This document shows, piece after piece, positions 1 to 47,802 of a stretch of 48,430 bases of DNA. Under the pieces are notes generated by a model. That model worked only from the letters and a program-made list of their open reading frames with translations. It made no database searches and was not told where the DNA came from. Each line of letters begins with the position of its first letter. Within the stretch, counting starts at the first letter, position 1. Source of the stretch: Deltaproteobacteria bacterium (GTDB lineage: Bacteria; Desulfobacterota; Syntrophobacteria; Syntrophobacterales; Syntrophobacteraceae). Position numbers and translations under genes: made by a program. The DNA is taken from contig JAJYDE010000030.1 of NCBI GenBank assembly GCA_021777755.1, positions 1-48,430 on the forward strand, given 5' to 3'.

Positions 1-2462
1 CAGCTCCAGCTCCATGGTCCCGTGCCCGAAATCGTCGAGGCCGTGCCGGAGTTGCAAAGGTTGGTTGTCGGAGCCGAAGTGAAATCTCCTCCGTTGCTGC
101 TTCCGCACACGCCGGTGACGATAAGATTTGCCGAGCAGCTTGCATTCGAGCCGCCGCTTGTTCCCCTGCAGGTCCAGCTCCAGGGCCCCGTGCCCGAAAC
201 GGTCGAGGCCGTACCGCTGCCGCAAAGGTTGGAGGTGGGAGCCGAAGTGAAGTCTCCCCCGTTGCTGCTTCCGCAGGAGGCGTTCACCATGAGGTTTGCC
301 GAACAGTTTGCGGTGGAGCCGCCGTTCGACCCCGAACAGCTCCAGCTCCAGGGTCCGGAGCCCGAAACAGTGGAAGCCGTGCCGCTGCCGCAAAGGTTGG
401 AGGTGGGAGCCGAAGTGAAATTTTGGCCGTTACTGCTTCCGCACACGCCGTTAACAATCGGGGGATCGGCCGTGCAGTTCGCAGTCGCCCCGCCATAGCG
501 TCCCTCGCATGTCCAGCTCCACGGTCCCGAGCCGGAGACCGCGGAAGCCGTGCCGATGCTGCAAAGATCCGTTGAGGGAGCCGAAGTGAATGTTCCGCCA
601 TTGCTGCTTCCGCACTCTCCATTTATTATCGCGTAGACTTCCCTGATCCTGCTGTTGGCGCTGTCGGCCATGTAAAAATTGCCGGAGGTATCAACAGCCA
701 CGCCGGCGGGCAGGTTCAACTCCGCCAAGACTGCGGCTCCCCCGTCGCCCGAATACCCCGCGGTACCGTTACCCGCAACCGTACTGATGATGCCCGATGC
801 ATTCACCTTCCTGATACGGTCGTTTTGATGATCCGCGATGTAGATATTGCCCGAAGAATCGACCGCGACCTCGGCCGGCTGGTTCAATTGCGCCGAGACG
901 GCAGTTCCCCTGTCGCCCGAATACCCCGGGGTACCGTTGCCCGCAACCGTGCTGATCGCCCCAGTCGATGCGGCCACCTCCCTGATGCGGTTGTTGCCAT
1001 AATCGGCAATGTAGATGTTGCCGGAAGCATCCACCGCGACTCCGGAAGGCTGGTTGAGCTCCGCCGAGATCGCCGGCCCCCCGTCGCCCGAATATCCCGC
1101 CGTGGCGTTACCCGCAACCGTGCTGATCGCTCCCGTCGATGCGTCCACCCTGCGGATGCAATTATTGTTGAAATCGGCAATGTAGATGTTGCCGGAAGCA
1201 TCCACCGCCACCCCGGAAGGCTGGTTGAGTTCCGCCGAGGTCGCAGCCCCCCCGTCGCCCGAATACCCCGCAGTACCGCTACCCGCAACCGTGCTGATCA
1301 TTCCGGTCGATGCGGCCACCCTGCGGATGCAATTGTTATTGTAATCGGCTATGTAGATATTGCCGGAAAGATCGACCGCAACACCCGCGGGCTGGTTCAA
1401 CTCCGCGGAAACCGCAGCCCCTCCGTCGCCCGAGTATCCCGCCGTCCCGTCGCCGGCGACCGTGCTGATAGCACCCGTCGATGCGTCCACCCTGCGGATG
1501 GAGTTATTGCTGGAATCGGCTATGAAGACATTGCCCGGAAGATCGACAGCCACACCCCCGGGCAGGTTCAACTGCGCTGAAACCGCCGCCCCCCCGTCGC
1601 CCGAATATCCCGCCGTGCCGTTGCCCGCAAAGGTGTCGATGATACCTCCCGGCGAGAGCGAAGCCGAAAGGGTCACCGGGTTTCCAGCCGCGCCGGCCCC
1701 GAAGCTGCCGTCCAGATTCCCCAGCGAACCCGTTTGGCCATAGTTGGTGTAGGAGGTCACTATGCCGGTCGGAGAGTTCTGGCCCCCGAGGGTCGTAATG
1801 CCCGAAAGCGCCACAACCAGTTGGTAGGAGTTGCCGCCTACCAGATTGACCCCGACCGTTTGCGGAGTTGCGGCAAGGCTTGAGATGCTGAACTTTGCCG
1901 AATTGAGCAGCGTGGAGGTGTTGGCGCTTTTGTCGGTTTGGAAGATCTGGACCTCTCCGGTCAGTTGGACCGGCGAGACGAAGCCGGCCCCGGCCGTAAT
2001 GGCGGAGTAAAGAGGCGCGAGGGCCGAGGCGGACAGAAGGTATTGGCCGGTCGAGCTGACCGTGAAGCTCCTGTCTATGTAGGAGGTGACGTTCTGGCCG
2101 GCCCCGAGAACCCCCGCCGGGTTGTCCAGTGCGAGATTGTTGTTGGCGGCATAGGCGTATACCGTAGCCCCCCCGGAATCCGCACTCGAATCCTGGACGG
2201 CGTTGCCCCAGGCGGCCGCCGCCATGCTCAACCCCGACTGAGATTCGTTTGCCTTTGCAACGGCCGTGTTTTCCGTATCACCGTCGGCACTCGACATGGT
2301 CTGGCCATTCGAAAGGGCCAGCATCCCCGGGAAATAGAACCCGCCGGTGTCTGTGGCGAGGTAGATGAAATTGTCCCCTGTCCACGTGATGCTTGCCTTT
2401 GCCTGCGACAAGGCAAAAAGTAAAATCCCCGAAATCACCAACAGACAGATTCTGCTCCTCAT
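1..2462 (-). CDS. Secreted NHL-repeat protein with C-terminal Cys-rich tandem repeats (3' end beyond window)
   Basis: The minus-strand frame from the ATG at 2462 stays open to the window edge (about 820 codons), so the C-terminus is missing. Residues 1-23 form a signal peptide (basic MRSR, hydrophobic core, AKA cleavage region). A beta-rich domain follows to about residue 270. Then come about six repeats of roughly 58 residues with the core GNIYIAD-NN-IRRV and AGYSGDGG (about 1640-640), which are NHL beta-propeller units. From about 640 to 1 at least four copies of a 56-57-residue repeat follow (CGSSNG, FTSAPT, GTAS, GPWSW). The pattern fits a secreted or surface beta-propeller protein; the ligand is unknown. 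The signal peptide and repeats are seen directly and the family is recognised; the function is not. Confidence 0.85.
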   Translation of the reverse strand, partial: MRSRICLLVISGILLFALSQAKASITWTGDNFIYLATDTGGFYFPGMLALSNGQTMSSADGDTENTAVAKANESQSGLSMAAAAWGNAVQDSSADSGGATVYAYAANNNLALDNPAGVLGAGQNVTSYIDRSFTVSSTGQYLLSASALAPLYSAITAGAGFVSPVQLTGEVQIFQTDKSANTSTLLNSAKFSISSLAATPQTVGVNLVGGNSYQLVVALSGITTLGGQNSPTGIVTSYTNYGQTGSLGNLDGSFGAGAAGNPVTLSASLSPGGIIDTFAGNGTAGYSGDGGAAVSAQLNLPGGVAVDLPGNVFIADSSNNSIRRVDASTGAISTVAGDGTAGYSGDGGAAVSAELNQPAGVAVDLSGNIYIADYNNNCIRRVAASTGMISTVAGSGTAGYSGDGGAATSAELNQPSGVAVDASGNIYIADFNNNCIRRVDASTGAISTVAGNATAGYSGDGGPAISAELNQPSGVAVDASGNIYIADYGNNRIREVAASTGAISTVAGNGTPGYSGDRGTAVSAQLNQPAEVAVDSSGNIYIADHQNDRIRKVNASGIISTVAGNGTAGYSGDGGAAVLAELNLPAGVAVDTSGNFYMADSANSRIREVYAIINGECGSSNGGTFTSAPSTDLCSIGTASAVSGSGPWSWTCEGRYGGATANCTADPPIVNGVCGSSNGQNFTSAPTSNLCGSGTASTVSGSGPWSWSCSGSNGGSTANCSANLMVNASCGSSNGGDFTSAPTSNLCGSGTASTVSGTGPWSWTCRGTSGGSNASCSANLIVTGVCGSSNGGDFTSAPTTNLCNSGTASTISGTGPWSWS

Positions 2463-4867: not shown

Positions 4868-5630
4868 AATGGTCTCCTCCATGGACGTCGAATTGTAAGG
4901 ATCATTTTTGCGTCGGATCGAAATGGGAAATTGCACGCCTTGCACCATCTCGACCCCGCATCTCCATCGCCCCCGGCAAATTTCGGCTCGCCCGCAAAAC
5001 GCCACGGACATCCCCTCGTCCGGAGGAAATCACCTCTTGGACCTCCTTTCCGCAAAAGAATCGTTTCAGACCCTTCCGCTTCTTGATACCCGCGGTTACT
5101 GGCACCGCCGCCAATGCCTGCCGGATGATCGACGCCGCAAGGTGAACTGGAGGAGGAAGAACACGAACTGGAGAGAGGACTTTTTGTGCACATCGTCACC
5201 GGTTGGAACCCGATACCAATGCTCACCGAAGTGGCAAATGGCTTCAATGTGGATACAATATAGCTAAAAAACCCGTTTTGGCAAACAGGAAAGATGGCGC
5301 GGACCTCCGTTTTGTTTTTCCGGTCCGCGGCGGTGACCACCGCTCGGGCCTACCCGAAACCAAACCCGATCATCTCCACCCCTGTATGAGGCCCCCAATT
5401 TCATGACCGCAGCCATTTTCACCCCCGGGGCCGCGCAAGAAGCGCGTCTAGAGCCCTGACGCCCGCGGCTTTTACCCTCGCAATGAGTCCTTGCAATGAA
5501 TTTTATCTTCAGAAAGCCCTTTCCTTTGTTGCTTCCTTTAAAATTTGATATTAAAGTCGTGTTGCGTGCAAAATAGATGTTTGCCTGCGAATCGACAAAA
5601 AACAATTAAAGCGGAAGGATTCTAAAAGTT
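4868..5630. other. Long intergenic region
   Basis: There is no intact gene. It contains a candidate minus-strand promoter (5257-5284), a GC-rich hairpin (CGCGGACC 5298-5305 with GGTCCGCG 5322-5329) and the AT-rich upstream region of the cold-shock gene. On the plus strand, 5025-5263 can be read across one frameshift as a protein-like C-terminus ending FNVDTI and a stop, perhaps a decayed gene. Confidence 0.4.
5257..5284 (-). promoter_or_regulatory. Putative promoter upstream of the SatP-like permease
   Basis: On the minus strand TTGCCA (5284-5279) and TATATT (5262-5257) are separated by 16 bases. The site points to the permease, with its predicted start about 380 bases before the ATG at 4867. 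Confidence 0.4.
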
Positions 5631-42397: not shown

Positions 42398-42838
42398 ACC
42401 GGCAATCGACCTCTTTTTCTGAAAAATTCGGGGAAGCGGGAAAAAACCTGCTCCCGGCTTCCGGATGCGCAAAACCAAACCGCCATATGATACTCTTTAT
42501 TGCGGTTCATAAAAAGAGCGCGGAGCCGAGTTTCCCCGTCCCGTGAAAATTCCTTTTCGGACGGTTGCAAGTTTGCTTCCCCTTGCAGGCAACTTCTCCA
42601 AAGTCCCGGATAATAGTATAAAAGATCGGTTGCTTCAGGCAGTTACAAAACAGCACGGCGGGGCCGATCGCCAATTGCGGCTGCGATCATCAGCTCGCCG
42701 CCGCTTAGAACGATGTGCGGATATTTGCTGAGATGGAAGAGTATTGGCTGCCTGAGTAAAGCCGTTTGCGAACCTTAATTTCGGGCTTGGTGTTCATCCG
42801 GTGTAAACGGGACATCCTTCGGCTGCGCCGCTGCCTGC
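42398..42838. other. Intergenic region with repeat copy A
   Basis: Apart from repeat copy A (42516-42660) there is no confident gene. Downstream of the repeat, 42709-42756 reads NDVRIFAEMEEYWLPE and a stop, which looks like a protein C-terminus without a body and may be a gene remnant. Confidence 0.4.
42516..42660 (+). repeat. Dispersed repeat, copy A
   Basis: It aligns with copy B (45947-46092) over about 145 bases starting GAGCGCGG, with one three-base indel and scattered substitutions. Both contain a GTG-started frame (VKIPF...) with mostly conservative protein changes: GNF, VPDN, KD-L-QAV. No Shine-Dalgarno sequence precedes the GTG. In copy A similarity and frame content end near 42660. 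Confidence 0.75.
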
Positions 42839-44029
42839 TTAAGACCTCTGCCCTTCCTTCCCCCTCGCCTCCAGGAGCAGGGCGTAGACACAGTCGGCGA
42901 GGCGGGCCGCCAGCAGGGGCGGTACGGCATTGCCTATCTGTTTGGCAACTTCAATTTTAGACCCGACAAAATGGAACCCGTCGGGAAACGACTGTAATCG
43001 GGCGGCCTCCCGGTGCGTAATCGGGCGATGTTGCTCGGGGTGGAGGTATCTGCCCTTTTCCGGCTTGAAGAACTCGGTCCGAATTGTGACTCCGGGTCTG
43101 TTCCACCAGAGCCGTCCGAACAGGTCGGTGCCCCCGGACGTCTTTCGTATCCAACATCCGGGCGTCAGGTCCGGCGCACGTTTTTGAAGGTCGAAACGAT
43201 TCATGCCTTCCTCGGCCACAGCCATGTAGCGCTTCAAGCTTTTTTGCGTGGGACAACGCCCGAAGTGCAAGTCGTAGGGAGGAGCATCATCCCTGATTTC
43301 CGTACCCCTCGGCGGTTCAAGATCGCCGATGGCGTCCCGCACCGTTCGATAAGGTTGCGGGCGCGCTATGAAGGGTATCTCTCCTTCGGCAAAACCGCGT
43401 CTCTGCTTCAGATCGGGTGAATAATGGGTTCTCTTCGGCGGGAAGACCGCTCGCGGATCGCACAATCTGCTGCCGATGATAAACGCCCGCCAGCGAATTT
43501 GAGGTACTCCGTGGTCGGCTGCGCAGAGTCGCGCGGATACCGTCTTGAACCCCATCTCCGAGGCCTTGTCGAGAATCATTTGATGTTCGGCGGACCCGAT
43601 CAGTTGGGGGACGTTTTCCATAAGAAAAACGTCTGCGCCAGCCCTCTTGACGACAGCCATAAAGGGGCGCCAGAGCTGCTTGCGTTCGTCTCCGTCGCGC
43701 AGCTTATTCAAAAGGCTGAACCCTTGGCACGGCGGACCTCCGATGACTGCCTCGGCATGGGGAATCGCGACGGATCGGTCCTGAAGAAGATCGACGATAT
43801 CGCCGGGCGTGCAGTGTGCACCAAAATTCGCATTGTAGGTTTGCACCGCGCAAGCGTTGAAGTCGTTAGCCCATACCGGTTCAAAGAAGTGTCCCATGAG
43901 GGCGGTGAAGCCAACCGTCATGCCCCCGGCGCCTGAGAACAGGTCAATCAAGCGAGGTCGGAAGGAGTGGCTGAGGCTCCCGCCCACCCTCGCATTGAAA
44001 ACCTCCTCGTCGCGGCTGAGGTTGCTCAT
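42839..44029 (-). CDS. DNA (cytosine-5) methyltransferase
   Basis: A 396-residue m5C methyltransferase with motifs in order: I LIDLFSGAGGMTVGF, IV GGPPCQGFS (catalytic C101), VI FLMENVP (E138), VIII QIRWRAFIIG, IX near RPITHREAARLQSFPDGF, X QIGNAVPPLLAARL. The target-recognition region lies between about 230 and 330. The ATG at 44029 is used; a GTG at 44062 with AAAGGG upstream is an alternative. No restriction endonuclease or vsr gene is adjacent, so it is solitary here. Upstream lies a decayed transposase gene. Confidence 0.92.
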   Translation of the reverse strand: MSNLSRDEEVFNARVGGSLSHSFRPRLIDLFSGAGGMTVGFTALMGHFFEPVWANDFNACAVQTYNANFGAHCTPGDIVDLLQDRSVAIPHAEAVIGGPPCQGFSLLNKLRDGDERKQLWRPFMAVVKRAGADVFLMENVPQLIGSAEHQMILDKASEMGFKTVSARLCAADHGVPQIRWRAFIIGSRLCDPRAVFPPKRTHYSPDLKQRRGFAEGEIPFIARPQPYRTVRDAIGDLEPPRGTEIRDDAPPYDLHFGRCPTQKSLKRYMAVAEEGMNRFDLQKRAPDLTPGCWIRKTSGGTDLFGRLWWNRPGVTIRTEFFKPEKGRYLHPEQHRPITHREAARLQSFPDGFHFVGSKIEVAKQIGNAVPPLLAARLADCVYALLLEARGKEGQRS

Positions 44030-44250
44030 TGATGGTTGTGGTTCTTGGGCGTTATATGACACGCGCAACCCTTTCAGAGGTCATTGACGTTTAGGTGGAG
44101 GACCGGAATTAGTCAAGACAGAAACAACAGGGTGAATTGATTCATCCAAAATCAACAAAGTAAATCATCGGTTTAAATTCCTGTCTGATCAACTCTTTCC
44201 CGTTGGTGTATAAGGAGTGCCTCTCATACTCATTCGGGAGGTGATCCCCG

Positions 44251-45977
44251 TTGGACATTCGGCAGATCCAAGTCAGGCCCGCAGAGCGATCCGAAGAAAG
44301 TCGCCACCAGGAACTGATGGGTGAGCATCATTACCTGGGACGTTTGCCCAAGATAGGCGAAACCCTTTGGTATGTCGCAATGTGGCATAACCAATGGGTG
44401 GCACTCCCGAGCTTTTCGGCCGCTGCATTGAAGTGCGCGGCACGTGATCAATGGATTGGCTGGAGTTCACGTCATAAGTTTGATCGCCTTAAACTGATAG
44501 CGAACAACAGCCGCTTCCCGATCCTTACTGACTGGCACGTTCCGAATCTGGGGTCTCGCATTTTGTCTCTGTGCCAGAAGAGGCTACCCTCCGATTGGCA
44601 AAACACCTTCGGCCCCCCCCTGGTATTGCTTGAGACCTTTGTGGATCCTCAACGTTTCCACGGCACCGTCTACAGAGCGGCAAATTGGATATTAGCGGGT
44701 CGCACGAAAGGTTTCCGTCGTTCTGGCAAGGGTTATGGCGCTAAAACCCCTTCACACAAAATGATCTTCCTAAAACCACTGCAACCCGATGCACAAGAAT
44801 TACTGTCCCGTCCCATCCTCGAACCCAACCTGTACACCGGAGCAGCAAAAATGACGATAACCGCTGATAAGATGCGGACTTTGCCCCAATTTTTCGCCGA
44901 TATTCCCGATCCTCGCCGCATTCAAGGACGCCGTCACAGGCTTGCAACCGTGCTTGCCATATCCGCCGGCGCGGTTTTGTGCGGAATGCGAGGTTATAAG
45001 GCCATCGCAGACTGGGCAAACAGTCTTGGGCAAAAAGCGCGTGAACGCTTTAGGTGCCGGAAGGATGAAAGCCTTGCGATCGACGGCAAGACTATGTGCA
45101 ATGCTCTCGATGAGAAGGGGTATCAAACTCATATTATGAGTGCCATCGGCCATCAGACCAAAAGTTGCCACACCCGAAAAAAGTAGGCTTCCTTCCGCGA
45201 CGGGAAAATGAGGAGGCCAAGCGCACAAACGAGATCAAAACAGCTATTCCCCTTCTTGATTCGCTCGACATCCAGGGCAAGATTATCACTGCCGACGCTC
45301 TTCTCACCCGGCGCGGCTTCGCCGATTACCTGGTCCTGAAGCGCAAGGCCCACTATCACTTCACCGTTAAAGCAAACCAACCCGCGCTCCTTAAAGACAT
45401 CGCATTGTTTTTCCTCGACCGGAAAGAACCCGACCACATCGACAATTCTGCCGATCACGGTCGCATCGAAACCCGAAAAAGCTGGATCACCTCAGAGCTA
45501 AACGACTGTCTGGACTTTCCTCACGTGGGGCAGCCATTCATGATCGAGCGCCACTGCATCGATAAAAAGTCAGGAAAAACCTCTCGCGAAACCTGTTAGG
45601 GCGTTACCAGCCAATCGCCAAGGGAGGCAGACCCGCAAAGCGTTCTTGCCACCAATCGGGGGCACTGGGGGATCGAGAACAGTTGCCACTATATCCTCGA
45701 CCGGGTTTACGACGAGGATCGAGTCCGCATCGGCAAGGGGTTTGGCCCTGAGAACATTTCCCGGCTAAGACGCTTTGCCATCGGAGTTATAAAGTACAAA
45801 AGAGTGTCGTGTGTAGCCCAGAAAATGCGCCAACTTGCATGCAACGTCCGCATGGTTTTCGACTACCTCCGCAGACTGGGAACTCATGCCCCCGTTCTAA
45901 CTGCTGATTGGAAAAGAGAACAAATCGCACCTGAGAGAAACAATGAGAGCGCGGCCCCGAGTTCCCCCATCCCGTGA
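44251..45977 (+). pseudogene. Disrupted DUF4338 (DruA-like)-ISAs1 family transposase fusion
   Basis: An opening TTG with GGGAGG upstream starts a DUF4338 domain (about 1-190: ELMGEHHYLGRLPKIGETLWYV, WIGWSSRHKFDRLKLIANNSRF, LETFVDPQRFHGTVYRAANW), as in DruA. An ISAs1 transposase then follows in the same frame (DIPDPRRIQGRRHRLATVLAISAGAVL, LAIDGKT). It is broken three times: sequence between RFRCR and KDESLAIDGKT looks deleted, a frameshift and stop lie near 45183, and TAG at 45597 interrupts SRETC/GVTSQSP. The rest (ITADALLTRRGF, HWGIENSCHYILD, ending 45977) carries the remaining catalytic D and E. Confidence 0.85.
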
Positions 45978-46092
45978 AAATTCCTTTTCAGGCGGTTGCA
46001 AGTTTCTTTAATTTCCTTATGGGCAACTTCCCCAGAGTCCCGGATAATACTAACAAAGATCAGCTAATTCAAGCGGTTGTAAAAAAGCAGGG
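45947..46092 (+). repeat. Dispersed repeat, copy B
   Basis: The partner of copy A (42516-42660), same orientation, roughly three quarters identical by eye. It begins inside the last codons of the transposase remnant. Together the two copies bracket the methyltransferase and the transposase. Confidence 0.75.
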
Positions 46093-46219
46093 AATTCTTT
46101 TCGCCGGCCCGGTTCTTGGATTATCAATTGGCGAACAGAGTGGGCAGTGTATGGTCGAGGCGGGTGACCAGCCCGATTTTAAAATTGATTGTATTGTCAA
46201 GGAAAGGAACCTCCCATGA
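45974..46219 (+). CDS. Possible small protein encoded partly by repeat copy B
   Basis: A GTG-started 81-codon frame (VKIPFQAVASFFNFLMGNFPRV..., ending VKERNLP). The first 40 codons are the repeated part shared with copy A; the rest is unique. It ends in ATGA with the secreted-protein gene, consistent with translational coupling. It lacks a Shine-Dalgarno sequence and resembles no family known to me. It may be real or chance. Confidence 0.3.
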   Translation: MKIPFQAVASFFNFLMGNFPRVPDNTNKDQLIQAVVKKQGILFAGPVLGLSIGEQSGQCMVEAGDQPDFKIDCIVKERNLP

Positions 46220-46473
46220 AAAAGCTATTCTATCTGCTTTCAGTTTTAGCGCTAAGCGTTTTTGCATCTTCCGGAACGCTTCGGGCCGGGCCAGCGGCCC
46301 CGCTGTGTCCGAGGCATCAAACTCAATGCGCTCAAAAGGCCAAGGTCATGTACTGCAGCGTTACCGAAGAGGTCATGAAAAACAAATTTCTCCCCGGAAG
46401 AGCCGGACTGTGGGGATGGGAGCGAGTGCCGGAATTCGAAAAGTTATCGGAAAAGTGCCCGACGATGAAGTAG
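46216..46473 (+). CDS. Small secreted Cys-containing protein
   Basis: An 85-residue protein with a clear signal peptide (MKKLFYLLSVLALSVFASSGTLRAG, cleavage near residue 25) and a short mature part with four Cys (PLCPRHQTQC, VMYCS, EKCPTMK). AAGGAAC lies seven bases before the ATG. No family recognised. The Cys pairs could form disulfides or bind metal. It is followed by a hairpin. Confidence 0.7.
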   Translation: MKKLFYLLSVLALSVFASSGTLRAGPAAPLCPRHQTQCAQKAKVMYCSVTEEVMKNKFLPGRAGLWGWERVPEFEKLSEKCPTMK

Positions 46474-46474
46474 T

Positions 46475-46530
46475 TTCGCGACGTTTTACAATTCGAAGAC
46501 ACGGCTAAAAAGGGGGCAATCAGACCGAAG
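46475..46530 (+). repeat. Direct repeat C (with 47489-47545)
   Basis: About 56 bases (core CGAAGACACGG and GGGCAATCAGACC) recur 1.0 kb downstream in the same orientation with few differences. Both copies enter the left arm of a terminator hairpin. The pair frames the AT-rich segment with the HNH-like gene. Confidence 0.75.
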
Positions 46531-46540
46531 TTTGCCCCCT
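46511..46540 (-). terminator. Terminator after the HNH-like gene (minus) and the secreted protein (plus)
   Basis: AGGGGGCAA pairs with TTGCCCCCT (nine base pairs, loop of twelve). On the minus strand it is followed by TTTTT, fitting termination of the HNH-like gene. It also lies 38 bases after the plus-strand secreted protein. Confidence 0.65.
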
Positions 46541-46599
46541 GCATGCGAACGAAGGAAAACGCCAGCAGTGTCTCAATTCCGAGCACGTCGAAATTAATT

Positions 46600-46905
46600 T
46601 CAGCCCGGCATCTTCCCCGTGAATGCCCTTGCCTTTGCTGATGCCTCTGCTGCCTGATCATAAATGGACTTTCTCCATGATTCTGGCATACCCTCGACAC
46701 CTGCATCTATCATTGCCATGAACACCTTTGGTTTAACGTGTGTATCAAACATTATATGGGAAGTTGGACAAAGCATTAGAAGGTTATTCTCGGTCTTTTT
46801 CCCTTCCGTCATAATATGTGCCTTCTGTCTTACTCCAACATAGTTACCACACATTTCACATATACCGGCTGATTTCAGCATCATTACCTCGTCATTTCTG
46901 GACAT
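46600..46905 (-). CDS. HNH-endonuclease-like protein
   Basis: A 101-residue protein with CEMCGNYVGVRQKAHIMTEGKKTENNLLMLCPTSHIMFDTHV: CxxC, the A-H segment, NLLMLC and SH-x3-D-x-H match an HNH/His-Me finger with two zinc knuckles. A role as mobile-element or defence nuclease is possible; no partner is present. The gene is AT-rich compared with the rest of the window. No clear ribosome-binding site; an internal start at MMLKSAGICEMCG is possible. Confidence 0.7.
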   Translation of the reverse strand: MSRNDEVMMLKSAGICEMCGNYVGVRQKAHIMTEGKKTENNLLMLCPTSHIMFDTHVKPKVFMAMIDAGVEGMPESWRKSIYDQAAEASAKARAFTGKMPG

Positions 46906-47488
46906 CGCGCATATTTTACTGTGCAGTTCTTATATTATTGTGCTTTTGGTCCATGCCAAACCCATTTACCAGCATAGTATGCCAAAATAATAACAATAGG
47001 TAATGTTGAAATAACTTCTAGTGATGTTTATAGCATCGCCGTAATAACTATAATTGAAATCGTTCAAACAGGTCAAACCGAAATACAATGTCCATGGCAC
47101 ATAAACTACAATCATAATCTAATAATATCCCTGCGTGAAAAGCGCGGCCACCCTTTGACTTTATCCATCCTTTATGAGGCCACTACACAACACAGCATGG
47201 TAAGGTGTCAACTTACAACATCTCGACCAGTTATGGAAAGGGGGACTTGCCGCTGGCAAGCAGGGCAACATCTCACACTAATTTGGTAGAAAATGGAGCG
47301 CGTCCCTAAGAGCGCACAAACAGCCGATCGGACAAGTGCCAAGGGATGAAACAGAGCAGGGAAGATACGGGTTTAGGCAAATAATTCTAGCGGAACCGCG
47401 GCACAGGGAAGGCCGGCAATGAGTCGGCGGGATGATTTTCTTCTCAAGACCGGCGGGGTAATCAACGGGAAATGGGTCATACTGGAAT

Positions 47489-47545
47489 TTCTCGACGTTT
47501 GACAACTCGAAGACACGGCAAAAAAAGAGGGCAATCAGACCAGAG
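47489..47545 (+). repeat. Direct repeat D (with 46475-46530)
   Basis: This is the second copy of the roughly 56-base direct repeat described at 46475. It sits 83 bases from the 3' end of tRNA-Pro and contains the left arm of its terminator. Confidence 0.75.
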
Positions 47546-47581
47546 CATGACCTCCACCCCCGATTGCCCTCGCAAACCGAA
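47527..47581 (-). terminator. Terminator of the tRNA-Pro transcript
   Basis: GAGGGCAATC (47527-47536) pairs with GATTGCCCTC (47572-47581), ten base pairs with a long loop. On the minus strand it is followed by a run of T. It lies 47 bases beyond the tRNA 3' end. Confidence 0.65.
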
Positions 47582-47627
47582 CCTGCCTCAAGTAACTTAA
47601 CTTACCGAAATTGTGAGGCAAGTTGAG

Positions 47628-47701
47628 TCGGGACGACTGGATTCGAACCAGCGACCTCTGCGTCCCGAACGCAGCGCTCTACCAGGCTGAGCCACGTCCC
47701 G
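47628..47701 (-). tRNA. tRNA-Pro (anticodon CGG)
   Basis: A complete cloverleaf on the minus strand: acceptor CGGGACG/CGTCCCG with discriminator A, D-arm TGGCTCAGCCTGGTAGAGC, anticodon stem CTGCG/CGCAG around loop TTCGGGA, and T-arm CTGGTTCGAATCCAG. Anticodon CGG reads CCG. CCA is not encoded (CTC follows). It marks the right edge of the accessory segment. Confidence 0.96.
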
Positions 47702-47802
47702 ATCCAACAATGAGCGCATATGTAGCAAAATTTACCCATGCTGTCCATATGCTTTTGTGATTTAATCCTTCCACGCCTCGGCCGTTGTCGATCCGGCATG
47801 GC

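Follow-up and report, generated by a model that had tools for sequence, protein, structure and literature searches.

Direct repeats beside a tRNA-Pro gene resemble eroded right ends of genomic islands that integrated in succession

Is a 1-kb, A+T-rich segment that lies next to a tRNA-Pro gene and is framed by direct repeats a small mobile element, or is it a remnant of larger ones? The segment is in a 48,430-nucleotide stretch of DNA from a Deltaproteobacteria bacterium (Syntrophobacteraceae; contig JAJYDE010000030.1), the whole of which we refer to as the window. The initial annotation proposed that the segment inserted at a tRNA terminator with duplication of the target and that it might be a small mobile unit lacking an integrase. 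We compared the locus to the corresponding tRNA-Pro region of each of the ten other genomes in the genus (Syntrophobacteraceae MAGs). We think it probable that the repeats are two eroded right ends, left by successive integrations at tRNA-Pro(CGG), with cargo trapped between them.

The window contains two direct copies of a repeat, and each copy enters a hairpin, as originally described. The copies are at 46474-46526 and 47488-47541 (one base to the left of the coordinates first given), with a spacing of 1,014 bases. Their alignment spans 54 columns, contains a single 1-base gap, and shows 89% identity; it had an E value of ~8e-12 when the 48-kb window was compared with itself. A genome-wide search for a third copy in the window's own genome (G000) found none. 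The features of the locus are:

46189-46473, plus strand: 94-aa ORF with, from our reading of the sequence, a signal-peptide-like start; its stop codon directly precedes the left repeat
46474-46541: left repeat, an apparent relic of an integrase 3' tail (plus frame ...YNSKTRLKRGQSDR) and a hairpin
46512-46539, minus strand: left terminator-like hairpin, from sequence and fold, with arms 46512-46521 (GGGGGCAATC) and 46530-46539 (GTTTGCCCCC)
46600-46905, minus strand: HNH-like ORF, 101 aa, CxxC ... CPTS
46906-47382: A+T-rich stretch with no recognisable gene
47383-47494, plus strand: 5' part of a gene resembling Ser/Thr kinases, with its ATG at 47419, severed at approximately codon 25, where the right repeat begins
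47488-47571: right repeat, an apparent relic of an integrase 3' tail with a complete hairpin (47527-47536/47562-47571), at the tRNA-Pro terminator
47548-47561, plus strand: degenerate end motif TGACCTCCACCCCC, with 4 mismatches to the TGACCCCTGACCCC of intact relatives
47627-47701, minus strand: tRNA-Pro(CGG), whose T-loop region (~47629-47650) is the likely attachment core of related elements

The two hairpins have properties of terminators. On the minus strand a T run follows each hairpin, and the minus-strand folds had z values of -2.0 and -2.6. Each hairpin is self-complementary (the right arms are GAGGGCAATC at 47527-47536 and GATTGCCCTC at 47562-47571), and one compensatory pair differs between them, G-C in the left and A-T in the right. 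A simple terminator scan, which considered only loops of 3-8 bases, listed neither. The right hairpin ends ~56 bases beyond the 3' end of tRNA-Pro(CGG), the position of a terminator, in agreement with the original assignment of the distal hairpin as the tRNA-Pro terminator, and the right repeat probably still acts as one.

The DNA between the repeats contains one small gene and the start of another. Its G+C content is 43% (46541-47383) versus 56% in the window, and the HNH-like ORF matched PHROG 7370 ('HNH endonuclease') with an E value of 0.001, both consistent with the initial description; there was no match to Pfam or NCBIfam at 0.001. A counterpart in G008 has 76% amino acid identity. Over 90 shared codons there were 15, 8, and 48 differences at first, second, and third positions, respectively, and because the differences are biased to third positions, it appears that the gene was once under purifying selection. 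The window copy has CPTS versus CPTC in the G008 copy, a change that possibly removed a metal ligand. The gene was found in three of 55 genomes of the class, including that of the window, and one copy is broken by stops; this rarity fits with a role as cargo. We rejected the HNH gene as a marker for a mobile unit, as the stretches fetched from the other two genomes had no tRNA. The relative of the kinase-like gene in G001 carries on into GKGGMGEVY.... Relatives of the 94-aa ORF are on another contig of the window's own genome (C91, the 3' half, 77%) and in G001 (C246, most of the ORF, 74%), and on both contigs the ORF and the kinase start are neighbours. The only genes between the repeats are the HNH-like ORF and the kinase 5' fragment, and none is for integration or transfer; a search of 42400-47720 for inverted repeats of at least 20 bases found none.

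The repeats are collinear with the right ends of islands at tRNA-Pro in other genomes of the genus. We found tRNA-Pro(CGG) in nine of the 11 genomes, including that of the window; G002 and G007 had weaker matches only. In G003 and G001, the window repeat and terminator match the 3' end of a tyrosine-recombinase-like gene encoding 436/437 amino acids (PHROG 'integrase', E values of 2e-14 and 7e-15; no Pfam match), which is preceded by a serine recombinase of ~226 amino acids. The tRNA-Pro terminator in both genomes overlaps the 3' end of the integrase gene. G009 has this right end too, with a 298-aa gene ahead of it and no integrase. In the window, YNSKTRLKRGQSDR in the plus frame of the left repeat aligns with YEHTRKKKGQPDQR at the C-terminal end of the G003/G001-type integrase, and the start points of the two repeats on the integrase coincide within ~7 bases. 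From the right repeat through the tRNA, the window is 78-81% identical to G003, G009, and G001 in alignments of 149-245 bases that take in the tRNA. This stretch has every component of a right end: integrase tail, hairpin, motif (in degenerate form), spacer, and tRNA 3' end. The left repeat is collinear with the right ends of the related elements to the first TGACCCC-type motif and is then broken off.

Fragments of the tRNA 3' end mark the far ends of these islands. They were present downstream of tRNA-Pro in five of the nine genomes:

G001: L011:1189 and 6275
G003: L010:4116
G008: L069:3808
G009: L009:5987 and 8799
G010: L065:3365-3418

There were none in G004 and G005 (~8 kb read on that side in each) or in G006 (<0.8 kb read). 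AGTCG(T/C)CC comes after the left tRNA fragment in the G001, G003, and G009 elements, where it forms a palindrome around the T-loop (fullest form GGACGACTGG-ATTCGAA-CCAGTCGTCC), and next comes TGACCCCTGACCCC. This last sequence recurs inside the right-end terminator (pairs L009:8866/9947, L010:4179/9840, and L011:1256/6194, the last with one mismatch), and the pairs are the two ends of each element. From this arrangement, we infer that the related elements cross over within the T-loop of the tRNA, ~100 bases from the repeat.

The repeat belongs to the elements and is not a duplicated host target. In G001 (right copy), G004, G005, G006, G008, and G010, the 3' flank nearest the tRNA does not have this terminator. 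None of these six tRNA-Pro sites holds such an element, and we conclude that element DNA brought the terminator. The proposal of insertion at the tRNA is thus upheld in that tRNA-Pro is a hotspot for integration, and we rejected its other part, host target-site duplication: the repeat consists of an integrase 3' tail and terminator, and the six flanks without an element of this kind do not have it. No relative compared has preserved an empty site with a single repeat.

A position next to an RNA gene is common in the wider integrase family. We found 15 loci with integrases of this family in seven of 59 genomes. A tRNA or tmRNA adjoins the integrase in 10 of 12 loci scanned with ARAGORN, and the two genes are convergent each time; of the other two loci, one is that of G001, with a tRNA fragment, and one is at a contig end. 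Three loci (L040, L047, and L048) were outside the ARAGORN scan, and L040 has a tRNA-like stretch downstream. At this locus (G052:C15), the tRNA-like sequence resembles tRNA-Leu, and the last integrase codons are an A-tract and a long hairpin in the position of the tRNA terminator. A pattern search of viral_contigs for a viral origin of the integrase gave no match.

Tandem and integrase-free arrangements are present at the same tRNA in the genus. In G001, the right end and tRNA fragment have been pushed off the tRNA by a second island of ~38 kb. G008 (contig C2) has a 66-base direct repeat (L069:3768-3833 and 5520-5585, 92% identical, 1,752 bases apart) that consists of another integrase tail, a spacer, and the tRNA-Pro 3' end and frames 1.75 kb with a ParA-like gene; we assigned the ParA and integrase-tail labels by reading the sequence. 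In G009, three copies or fragments of the tRNA follow one another. Because of these parallels, a worn-down tandem in the window is an expected state. Also in G009 is a 1.2-kb element without an integrase (L009:8799-10101, G009:C22:21798-23100) that has both ends intact (a tRNA fragment, the end motif at each end, and an integrase-tail-like right end) and one cargo gene of 298 amino acids.

The window lacks several parts of the related elements. The left end (tRNA 3' fragment followed by TGACCCCTGACCCC) is absent from the window. Apart from the tRNA itself, there was no tRNA core in the 48 kb (up to 4 mismatches to a 21-base core), and there was no end motif between the repeats (up to 2 mismatches). 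The absence of an integrase, noted from the start, extends to the whole genome: G000 had no integrase matching the island type at E<=1e-20. A right-end search pattern (up to 1 mismatch) matched three of the 11 genomes, and missed G000 because the window copy is too degenerate. Since there is neither a left attachment fragment nor a left end motif, the small mobile unit proposed at the outset is not supported, and the 1-kb segment has probably lost any mobility.

Similarity of the left repeat to right ends appears to extend a short distance beyond the identity block. Past 46526, the number of shuffles that scored as high was 2/200 in comparison to G009, 11/200 to G003, 28/200 to G001, and 93/200 to the right repeat. 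Based on these alignments, the left repeat would be a second right end, collinear with relatives to ~46541, with modest support for the last 15 bases. We also looked for a continuation of the left repeat into a decayed tRNA fragment and rejected it: in the extension anchored on the right repeat, 93 of 200 shuffles did equally well, and in an unanchored comparison of the two repeat tails 708 of 1000 shuffles were as good. The best match to a decayed tRNA core in 46541-46600 was no better than shuffles (107/200).

These findings lead to the following model. Elements would integrate one after another into the 3' end of tRNA-Pro(CGG), the tyrosine recombinase gene of each pointing toward the tRNA. 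The last codons of the integrase would hold an A-tract and a hairpin that, read from the tRNA, serve as its new terminator. Recombination in the T-loop would rebuild the tRNA, and a fragment of the tRNA 3' end would remain on the far side of the element. The window would once have held two such elements in tandem, and deletions, by a route that we can only guess at and that might involve the TGACCCC motifs at both ends, would have taken the two recombinases along with the intervening tRNA fragment. What is left of the cargo would be the HNH-like gene and the kinase fragment. Two points are direct observations: how the islands are built in relatives, and that both window repeats are collinear with the right ends of those islands.

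Several other repeats and gene fragments are present in the window. A second, imperfect direct repeat (42515-42658 and 45946-46092, 79% over 147 bases) has one copy upstream of rpsA and one upstream of the 94-aa ORF, and frames a cytosine-5 methyltransferase, an ORF that is a DruA-domain/transposase fusion, and remains of an ISAs1 transposase. The fusion ORF (44251-45186) combines a DruA-like domain with the N-terminal domain of a DDE_Tnp_1-associated (ISAs1-like) transposase, and is perhaps the result of a transposon cutting into a defence-type gene. The last 125 bases of the contig (48306-48430) are also on contigs C100 (98%) and C75 (100% over 99 bases) of the same genome, and more weakly in G008; this repeat probably ended the assembly. 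The left end of the window (1-1655) contains diverged tandem repeats, 74-80% identical between copies.

We considered whether a single event might account for the locus. An integrase-free circle carrying the kinase fragment, a repeat, and the HNH gene could have entered a right end already in place (94-aa ORF, repeat, tRNA), either with the 54-base block as the substrate of an integrase or through homologous recombination. This is the initial reading shifted from a host target to the end of a resident element, and we regard it as unlikely. It accounts for the same start of both copies despite different left flanks and for the sharp bounds of the identity block, and segments of similar size without integrases are at the same tRNA in G009 and G008. 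However, the related elements probably cross over in the T-loop and not in the 54-base block, and the paired change in the two hairpins speaks against a crossover between the arms. Further, the 94-aa ORF and the kinase start here flank the 'insert' on opposite sides; their adjacency elsewhere (C91 and G001:C246) suggests a shared origin rather than a foreign circle. The common start (within ~7 bases) is better explained by a single recombination event, as two independent truncations would not predict it, whereas the self-matched hairpins with their one compensatory difference are expected of, and better explained by, a tandem of two whole right ends. Also counting against the tandem are the lack of a tRNA fragment or end motif between the repeats and the weak similarity of the left repeat past 46526.

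Rearrangement of the chromosome has a bearing on the locus as well. Window positions 39.0-42.4 kb are the rpsA region common to the genus, the genus-wide gene order on the rpsA side stops near 42.4-42.5 kb, the rpsA-adjacent genes of G010 are on C91 in the window's genome, and DNA downstream of the G010 and G003 tRNA-Pro islands is on its contig C16. Based on this break and these placements, the locus probably also marks a rearrangement. That a rearrangement was itself the source of the repeats seems quite unlikely to us. In that case, short homologies would have been the points at which an rpsA side with several 94-aa ORF/kinase units was joined to the tRNA-Pro side, and a local duplication at that time or later would have produced the left repeat. 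The joint between kinase and right repeat does have a 7-base near-match (TTTCTCG/TTTCGCG), but rearrangement alone does not put an integrase tail and terminator in place twice, and there was no tRNA core, end motif, or repeat in 19 kb of C16, 15 kb of C91, or 8 kb of C59. Misassembly of the metagenome contig or chance resemblance is very improbable: although the genome is a 103-contig draft, the E value is ~8e-12, the copies differ at several positions and in their flanks, and both align with element ends in other assemblies. Two eroded right ends in tandem are our preferred explanation. The observation is real and is explained in kind.

The locus illustrates how an integrase-free segment framed by repeats beside a tRNA can look once it has decayed. 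It also shows that repeats with a terminator at their end may come from the element and need not be a host target. In the related intact elements, the last integrase codons can double as the terminator of the invaded tRNA gene. It is also conceivable, and in our opinion unlikely, that the genus carries non-autonomous satellites of the tRNA-Pro islands, 1-2 kb long with one cargo gene and moved in trans by complete elements. Such satellites would have no integrase and would keep its last codons because those codons are both end site and tRNA terminator; the 1.2-kb unit in G009 would then represent the intact form, and the window a degraded form. Literature searches on islands, tRNA terminators, and integrase ends yielded nothing direct on integrase tails as tRNA terminators, which does not by itself prove novelty.

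Hotspots for genomic islands of this type are well known, and the window is an eroded one. In tRNA genes, tyrosine recombinases preferentially use sites in the T-loop and the anticodon loop. As in the islands and phages that use the T-loop, such as mycobacteriophage Ms6 in the part of the published account available (PMC1762012), the tRNA is rebuilt and the far end keeps a tRNA fragment; unlike in that part of the Ms6 account, the last integrase codons here also carry the replacement tRNA terminator, and the integrase and far end are missing from the window. Similar to MITE-like and target-duplicating transposable elements, the segment is small, recombinase-free, and framed by direct repeats, but it has no terminal inverted repeats and no other genomic copy, and its repeat is far longer than the target duplications of transposons. 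In the ssrA islands of Dehalococcoides, as described in the available portion of the report (PMC3146451), 15 islands are without integration modules and the recombinase gene dsiB overlaps the attachment site at the 3' end, as the integrase gene does here, although DsiB is a serine recombinase and the enzyme here is a tyrosine recombinase. The accretion model for CIMEs and ICESt1-type elements, in the sections available (PMC5704250), likewise has tandem and integrase-free forms at the 3' end of an RNA gene. A CIME has no integration or transfer genes inside, which is true of the window segment, and it retains attL and attR, whereas the window retains right ends only, with the core in the tRNA itself. 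Because there is no attL/attR pair, the window falls outside the definition of a CIME; it is a decayed remnant of a system of the CIME/accretion type.
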